The notes below the pieces were generated by a model. The model searched no databases. It had not been told where the DNA came from and saw only the letters and a list, made by a program, of their open reading frames with translations. The translations under genes were made by a program, and so were the position numbers. From positions 496,001-560,000 of the forward strand of contig NZ_CP110820.1 in assembly GCF_034359465.1 (NCBI RefSeq): 64,000 bases of DNA, given 5' to 3'. Each line of letters begins with the position of its first letter. Within the stretch, counting starts at the first letter, position 1. This document shows, one piece after another, positions 15,252 through 18,996 of the stretch. This DNA comes from Candidatus Bandiella woodruffii. Lineage in GTDB: Bacteria; Pseudomonadota; Alphaproteobacteria; Rickettsiales; Midichloriaceae.

Positions 15252-15806
15252 TTAAGTTTTTAATTGAGAATTTATATATTTTTCGAACGATTTAAGTATT
15301 TTATTACTTGCATAACCAAGCATTGGATGCATTAATTTCTGAAGAAATTTTGATTTAAGGGAAAATTCTGTTTTAAACTTTACGTCTGTTTTATCCTCAT
15401 CCACCATTTGTAACTCCCAACTTGAATTAAGAAACTCAAAAGGCCCATCAATCATGGTCGCCTTAATATATACCACACGTTTTTTAAAAGCTGGCATCGC
15501 TCTTTTGACGCCATCACGTTCCGTTGCACACTCTTTTTTACGCTCCTCATGCCTGCCACTTAATTCCTTATTATTTTTATCGTTATCTTCCATAGTGTCT
15601 TTAACCGTTACTAAAGATGTATACTTTATATTCATTCCTTTAAAAGAAATAATAAGATCAGCTGTAAAGCCCGCTTCAGTCTGCGTGATAATTCGTGCAC
15701 CGCTGCACCACGGTAAAAATTTTGGGTAGCTATTTGTATCTAAGATAACCTTTTTTAGCCTTAAGATATTGTGATCAATCAATCTTGAATCTGAATATGC
15801 AAACAT
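15252..15806 (-). CDS. COQ10/RatA-like START-domain protein with in-frame repeat insertion
   Basis: SRPBCC-fold lipid-binding protein of the COQ10/RatA type, thought to chaperone ubiquinone. Family members are about 145-150 residues; this one is 184. The start MFAYSDSRLID, the middle FKGMNIKYTSLV and the later IDGPFEFLNSSW are conserved. Residues about 69-111 are extra, charged, and match the dispersed palindromic repeat family, which has inserted without breaking the frame. The insertion falls between two beta strands, so the fold could tolerate it. It ends the group 16284-15252, one base after the preceding gene. Confidence 0.8.
   Translation of the reverse strand: MFAYSDSRLIDHNILRLKKVILDTNSYPKFLPWCSGARIITQTEAGFTADLIISFKGMNIKYTSLVTVKDTMEDNDKNNKELSGRHEERKKECATERDGVKRAMPAFKKRVVYIKATMIDGPFEFLNSSWELQMVDEDKTDVKFKTEFSLKSKFLQKLMHPMLGYASNKILKSFEKYINSQLKT
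15474..15602 (-). repeat. Dispersed palindromic repeat inserted in the COQ10-like gene
   Basis: The inserted stretch shares GCATGAGGAGCGTA exactly with the repeat at 17744-17907. It ends in a sequence matching that repeat's tail (GCCAGCTTTTAAAAAACG against GCCAATTTTTCAAGTTATCG). Its peptide (KELSGRHEERKK...) matches the reading of the copy near 63300 (KELSGKYGERIKK...). The boundaries are approximate. Confidence 0.72.
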
Positions 15807-17743: not shown

Positions 17744-17907
17744 TATGCCTCTAGTAAATCAAGAGAGCTGGCGAATTTACAGACGACAGAGAACTTGGAA
17801 AAGAGCAATGAATACGAGTGATGAGCATGAGGAGCGTACTGTTTGTACGTGACGAAATGCGAAGTCCGAAGTATTTTAAGACCAATTTTTCAAGTTATCG
17901 GAGTATA
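17744..17907. repeat. Dispersed palindromic repeat, copy R1
   Basis: One of about eight copies of a roughly 165-bp family. Family ends are near TATACACCTCTCGTAAATC and TTATCGGAGTATA. Inner landmarks are CAGAGAACTTGGAAAAGAGC, a short palindrome around GCGTACTGTTTGTACG, and GCGAAGTCCGAAGTATTTT. It lies between tRNA-Arg and mrp and fills most of that 340-bp gap; a TATAAT-like box for mrp may follow at about 17908. Confidence 0.82.
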
Positions 17908-18808: not shown

Positions 18809-18920
18809 AATACAATTGGATAACAGCTTAATAGAGACCACTGCATAATATAAAAATCAAAAGATTAGGGAAGAGAAAAGGAAAAAAATGCTTTGATGAG
18901 TTTGTAAAAAAAGAAAATAG

Positions 18921-18996
18921 AGCGCGTACAAAAGTACGTGACAAAATGCGAAGTCCGAAGTATTTTGACGCCAATTTTTCAAGTTATCGGAGTATA
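18921..18996. repeat. Dispersed palindromic repeat, partial copy R2
   Basis: Only the 3' half of the family is clear: GCGTACAAAAGTACGTGAC, then GCGAAGTCCGAAGTATTTTG and the terminal TTATCGGAGTATA. The upstream part (from about 18862) is degenerate. It lies between mrp and IS-C copy C1. Confidence 0.75.

Follow-up and report, generated by a model that had tools for sequence, protein, structure and literature searches.

A probable IS630-type MITE of the Midichloriaceae as the source of an in-frame insert in a COQ10-like protein

Several families of short bacterial repeats provide precedents for repeat DNA that becomes part of genes. The Correia elements of Neisseria use TA as their target. Also named CREE or NEMIS, these elements are about 100-200 bp long and are present in more than 100 copies, according to the section of a review that treats them (PMC10969869). 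In Coxiella burnetii, the QMITE1 and QMITE2 elements form the C-terminal ends of proteins; in one strain, 33 amino acids of EnhC have this origin. Some of them lie in frame in the middle of an ORF, and the examples named in the relevant passages of the report are hypothetical proteins (PMC5896051). The Rickettsia palindromic elements (RPEs) and the Wolbachia palindromic elements are palindromic repeats of 100-150 bp in the Rickettsiales, and the portions of the reports that concern them describe some as residing within ORFs whose frame they leave unbroken (PMC10969869, PMC3767692, PMC4224334). Nearly half of RPEs lie within ORFs, as stated in the pertinent part of the review (PMC10969869). The kind of event described below is therefore already known, whereas the MITE family involved and its link to IS630 are new; the open-access literature that we searched contained no description of MITEs in the Midichloriaceae.

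The DNA under study (the window) is a stretch of 64,000 nucleotides from Candidatus Bandiella woodruffii (G000:C1:496001-560000), whose genome comprises 1.225 Mb on three contigs. Unless a contig is named, coordinates refer to the window. A gene for a COQ10-like protein, adjoined by citrate synthase and by two ORFs without an assignment, carries an extra segment that coincides with a copy of a dispersed repeat:

15252..15806, (-) strand: COQ10/START-like (Polyketide_cyc) gene, the insertion host; 184 amino acids, assigned by Pfam, an AlphaFold2 fold and the relative 1t17
15477..15578, (-) strand: extra 34 codons (residues 77-110), missing in the three closest orthologues
15470..15573, (-) strand: diverged copy of the 126/128-bp form of the putative MITE, with a recognisable right end but no recognisable left terminal repeat

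The assignment of the host protein rests on a match of its residues 20-174 to the Polyketide_cyc/START family (PF03364, E 1.9e-16), on START/aromatase-cyclase folds as the structural matches of its model (Foldseek) and on 1t17 as the closest PDB entry by sequence. The AlphaFold2 model has a mean pLDDT of 87.3, with values of 98 on either side of the insert (residue blocks 61-70 and 111-120) and of 50-53 within it (residue blocks 81-100). Beta strands 58-73 and 109-120 flank the insert, which according to this model is a low-confidence surface loop on an otherwise confident START-like fold. A plasmid origin of the gene was considered and rejected, since plasmids give no DNA match.

The ORF was aligned with its counterparts from 26 other genomes of the order (27 of the 34 genomes, including this one, gave a match). 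In the three closest orthologues, which are 41-45% identical and lack the insert, residues 77-110 face one single gap. An initial annotation of this DNA had described about 43 extra residues at 15474-15602; the extra segment itself is borne out, and because the gap spans 34 residues (15477-15578), those bounds reached a little too far at the gene's 5' side. No matching segment was found in the ORFs of the 26 other genomes, and the segment is likewise absent from 19 more distant orthologues picked from the 80 loci of the scan. Distant orthologues that share the segment without similarity to the repeat, which the same annotation had named as contrary evidence, were sought in both sets and none was encountered. 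The alignment across the order also reveals an unrelated longer loop at the insert position in genome G018 and a shorter one in G011, so this loop tolerates changes in length.

At the DNA level, the segment matches a dispersed repeat, as had been proposed. A profile of the repeat that was trained on 10 other copies, with the COQ10 copy excluded, matches positions 15573-15470 with a score of 48.3 bits and an E-value of 5.1e-14 (nhmmer). When 1000 codon-shuffled COQ10-like genes were searched with this same profile, the best reached 10.8 bits, and a chance match to the repeat is thus ruled out. The copy is about 75-78% identical to its best relatives, including 78% identity to the copy at G000:C1:103003-103092 (E 6.8e-15, blast), and a covariance model, whose training set included this copy, places it at full length at 15469-15596. 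The segment defined by the orthologue gap and the repeat defined by the profile were found independently, and their ends agree within 7 nt. The sense frame across the copy is that of the Pfam-supported COQ10-like gene, and the proposal of an in-frame repeat copy that orthologues lack is upheld. It is nearly certain that the extra segment derives from the dispersed repeat.

The repeat has two main forms: form A of 162 bp (including the TA at both ends) and form B of 126 bp, which has a 128-bp variant. Conservation ceases at TATAC and GTATA boundaries, beyond which the flanks are unlike. Of the 37 A copies that reach 150 bp or more, 28 have TATA at the start and 31 have GTATA at the end. The recognisable copies within the window are:

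17744..17907, (+) strand: form A, 162-bp, full length; its neighbours are a tRNA gene and an ATPase-like gene
18920..18996, (+) strand: right half of an A copy
34653..34776, (+) strand: A copy without its left end
36599..36760, (+) strand: A copy, full length
36757..36877, (+) strand: second A copy, left-truncated, directly behind the copy at 36599..36760
63278..63405, (-) strand: 128-bp form; adds 42 codons (126 nt net) and is open in the COQ10 frame
63404-63279, 36659-36756, 34684-34775, 17815-17893, 18920-18992 and 36775-36870: extents of the profile matches to these six copies

The initial annotation had counted seven other places in the window, which is approximately right (six profile matches above threshold together with end fragments at 33802 and 47084), and its exact block of 14 bases, GCATGAGGAGCGTA, is indeed present without mismatch at four places in the window. 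Genome-wide, this block gives 25 exact matches and 30 with one mismatch, compared with none for a reversed-pattern control. After merging of matches, the genome holds 81 non-redundant copies, a count of DNA-level matches from the covariance model (E<=1e-3) plus blast copies of at least 60 nt. Covariance matches above 1e-3 were excluded from this total unless blast agreed, as were 13 weaker or end-only places; the covariance search scored 150 of the 1621 first-look candidates, and older copies inside genes may be missed.

The intact 126-bp form folds as an end-to-end hairpin (z -8.0), and the 128-bp copy at 63279-63404 gives a z of -3.7, whereas values for one A piece (-0.2) and one B fragment (0.8) are near zero. 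The copy in the COQ10-like gene has a z of 0.01 and its hairpin is gone. Calling the repeat palindromic, as had been done, is therefore apt for the family and not for this copy; likewise, the 126-bp and 128-bp forms are palindromic repeats in the 100-150 bp range of RPEs, and the COQ10 copy is not. The family has the hallmarks of a MITE: its elements are shorter than 400 bp, contain no transposase, are dispersed in many near-identical copies and bear TA-ended terminal inverted repeats, and the 126-bp form folds from end to end. A reading of the repeat as an RNA family was discarded, as only two tRNAs reach Rfam thresholds in the window.

Other mobile DNA abounds in the neighbourhood. Positions 8481-64000 of the window are rich in near-identical insertion sequences of several kinds, a number of which consist of paired overlapping ORFs of ~122-161 amino acids, as expected of frameshifted transposases. 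The truncated MITE at 36757-36887 overlaps the 3' end of an ORF at 36874-37377 (-), seemingly supplying its stop codon. At G000:C1:482254-483409, an insertion sequence with ends like CTAGATA(A/G)TGTCGTCATGAG was apparently inserted at the CTAG of an A copy and appears to split off the left end of that copy.

The ends of the repeat point to the type of transposon involved. An IS630-family transposase gene (DDE_3, PF13358) survives in this genome as two remnants, one of which scores above the cut-off. Both end in an identical TTTGCCAACTCTTCAAGTTAATGTGGTATA followed by unlike DNA, and this combination fixes the end of the insertion sequence. The remnant end and the MITE ends have 21-22 of 30 bases in common, a level that none of 500 shuffles reached. 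A member of another genus (G007, locus L317) carries a decayed IS630 in several copies that are 47-48% identical to the remnant in this genome. Its left end, TATATCTCTAATAAATAGAGAGTAGGCAAA, agrees with the left end of form A at 25 of 30 bases (0 of 500 shuffles), compared with a best match of 21 among 28 other IS630 loci. Ends held in common with an IS630-family element are thus found both in the remnants of this genome and at the left end of the G007 element. Between the right ends of that element and the MITE, 17 of 30 bases agree, no better than chance, which we count against the link. Across 23 genomes of Midichloriaceae, no intact IS630 with the ends of the MITE was found, and the nearest elements by sequence are decayed. 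We also found no clean empty site with a TA duplication: joined flanks gave no clean match, and for two copies in G034 a comparison with four congeners of that genome yielded no empty site that could be aligned. The alignments break off within some 65 bp of one of these copies, and next to the other lies a member of a second repeat family. Because its ends match decayed IS630 elements both here and in another genus, the repeat is, judging from these sequences, very probably an IS630-type MITE that most likely owed its movement to an IS630-type transposase. A right-end match in G004 (L155, around 1500) belongs to a different hairpin element with the same terminal TTTTTCAAATTAACGGAGTATA, which suggests that several types of MITE share a set of IS630-like ends.

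Representatives of this MITE are widespread in the family. A covariance model of form A identifies it in 11 of the 23 genomes and in 8 of the 14 genera of Midichloriaceae, with 90 matches here, 82 in G004 and 17 in G014; each of the remaining eight genomes has between one and four. Over 161 bp, the copies in G034 and G020 share 91-93% identity with the A consensus of this genome. The right end was not found with up to three mismatches in 13 genomes from other families of the order, and the MITE therefore looks lineage-specific, its distinction from RPEs being drawn from their descriptions only. What emerges is a high-copy MITE that occurs in 8 of 14 Midichloriaceae genera and is linked to the IS630 family. 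At L379:3753-3877 in G034, a MITE copy borders directly on a repeat of another, unrelated kind, ~125 bp long, which is abundant in G017 (no fewer than 15 places).

For the 81 copies, 11 stop-to-stop frames extend at least 45 nt past the copy on both sides. The COQ10 copy accounts for two of them, of which the sense frame is the gene, and none of nine other frames (the COQ10 antisense frame and eight others) has a Pfam match. The eleventh frame, at 210893, is a CCDC90-like ORF whose Pfam match lies downstream of the element. Only the COQ10 copy, one of 81, is thus internal to a Pfam-supported gene. Three additional copies provide C-terminal tails, to LpxB (817763), a SufB/D core protein (289522) and an SDF symporter (450724). 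The first of these ORFs (G000:C1:816377-817870; L143:178-1671) combines an Sdh5/SdhE domain (PF03937) with a following LpxB domain (PF02684), an unusual apparent SdhE-LpxB fusion, and its last residues, about 36, are MITE-derived. At 963850 (Peptidase_S9_N) and 767794 (GCV_T), copies may also overlap genes in frame at the upstream side, depending on where translation starts. The frequent in-frame presence inside protein genes that marks RPEs is consequently not seen here (one internal copy and three tails among 81). The suggestion that an unrelated family is doing what RPEs do holds for the in-frame repeat copy and for its lineage-specific look, but not for a gene-invading habit. The locus is better described as an IS630-type MITE that sits mostly outside recognisable genes, with the COQ10 insertion as one tolerated in-frame case.

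How such an element might become protein can be read from its 128-bp form, which adds a net 126 nt and is open in one frame, the very frame used by the COQ10-like gene. The copy at 63278-63405 reads TQSILKIGKELSG... in this frame, the consensus translation of the form is KIGKELSG..ERIKKY..KCES.KMT.PTFKRRGV, and the COQ10 copy is 51% identical to the translated frame over 37 amino acids (E 3.9e-6). Given a net gain of 42 codons and an unbroken frame, a properly oriented and phased copy would extend a protein without breaking it. We propose that a non-autonomous IS630-type MITE of about 126-128 bp entered the loop between two beta strands of the COQ10/START-like lipid-binding protein. A transposase from an IS630 element that is now decayed in this genome would have recognised the roughly 27-bp ends (TATAC...GTATA) and joined the MITE to a TA target, and the copy, having landed in the right orientation and phase, would have lengthened the protein. 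Its DNA would later have decayed, so that neither the left end nor the hairpin survived, with the frame remaining open throughout, and the insert would persist because the loop tolerates extra residues. Since the left terminal repeat is unrecognisable and the gain is 34 rather than 42 codons, either a truncated copy was inserted or the insert was trimmed later; the element could already have been truncated at insertion, which counts against the full-length scenario. In this sequence of events we infer four components, namely insertion by a transposase, duplication of the TA, the 128-bp form as the insert and neutrality.

The alternatives to this proposal differ in which observations they accommodate. 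Perhaps the segment is a native, lineage-specific extension of the loop that resembles the repeat by chance; G018 and, to a lesser degree, G011 also have a longer loop here, with causes unconnected to the repeat, but neither the match of the copy-excluded profile (E 5.1e-14, approached by none of 1000 codon shuffles) nor the blast match to another copy (E 6.8e-15) fits with this idea, which we regard as extremely improbable. A selfish repeat in the manner of RPEs, habitually inserting in frame into many genes and spread by an unknown process, is a stronger contender. It would account for the unambiguous in-frame copy within a conserved gene, for a 128-bp form that is a net multiple of three with one open frame and for three further copies that form C-terminal tails. 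However, a single internal copy in 81 is hardly the record of a habit, and the ends shared with IS630 already supply a transposon explanation, making this reading quite unlikely.

A further possibility concerns the fate of the insert rather than its origin: the MITE segment may have been co-opted for a function of its own, in binding or regulation, that kept the frame open despite loss of the hairpin. In favour of co-option, the frame is open and the conserved fold intact even though the DNA is now about 75-78% identical to its best relatives. Nevertheless, the segment is a low-confidence loop with no predicted structure, and selection on the remaining protein explains the open frame, so that we consider co-option unlikely. 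The homology, its boundaries, the open frame, the position in the fold prediction and the ends shared with IS630 are established observations, and the insertion of an IS630-type MITE into the COQ10-like gene is, as a whole explanation, one in which we place high confidence. The gene offers one worked case of a MITE turned into part of a conserved protein.

Each of the known systems resembles this MITE in part. Like the Correia elements, which are bacterial MITEs with TA ends, it has terminal inverted repeats and no transposase of its own; unlike them, it resides in Midichloriaceae and has ends that match IS630 remnants of that family, the two being likened by description only. With the QMITEs of Coxiella, as characterized in the relevant passages of their report, it shares an intracellular bacterial host, C-terminal extensions and occasional copies in the middle of an ORF. 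The mid-ORF hosts named in those passages are hypothetical proteins of an unrelated bacterium, whereas the host here is a conserved and widespread fold. RPEs differ in that, by the account in the corresponding part of the review, a large share lies in ORFs, compared with the 1 in 81 copies of this MITE that is internal to a Pfam-supported gene. In addition, the portions of PMC10969869, PMC3767692 and PMC4224334 that deal with RPEs name no transposon ends, whereas the ends of this MITE match IS630. A MITE that ranges across the Midichloriaceae, has a protein-capable form (126 nt net) and is tied to IS630 invites the speculation, which we rate as possible though improbable, that the RPEs of Rickettsia and the palindromic elements of Wolbachia are likewise old IS630-type MITEs whose sources have vanished. 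If this were true, the unexplained spread of RPEs would gain a concrete mechanism. The Midichloriaceae MITE in any case provides a transposon-based model for testing RPEs.
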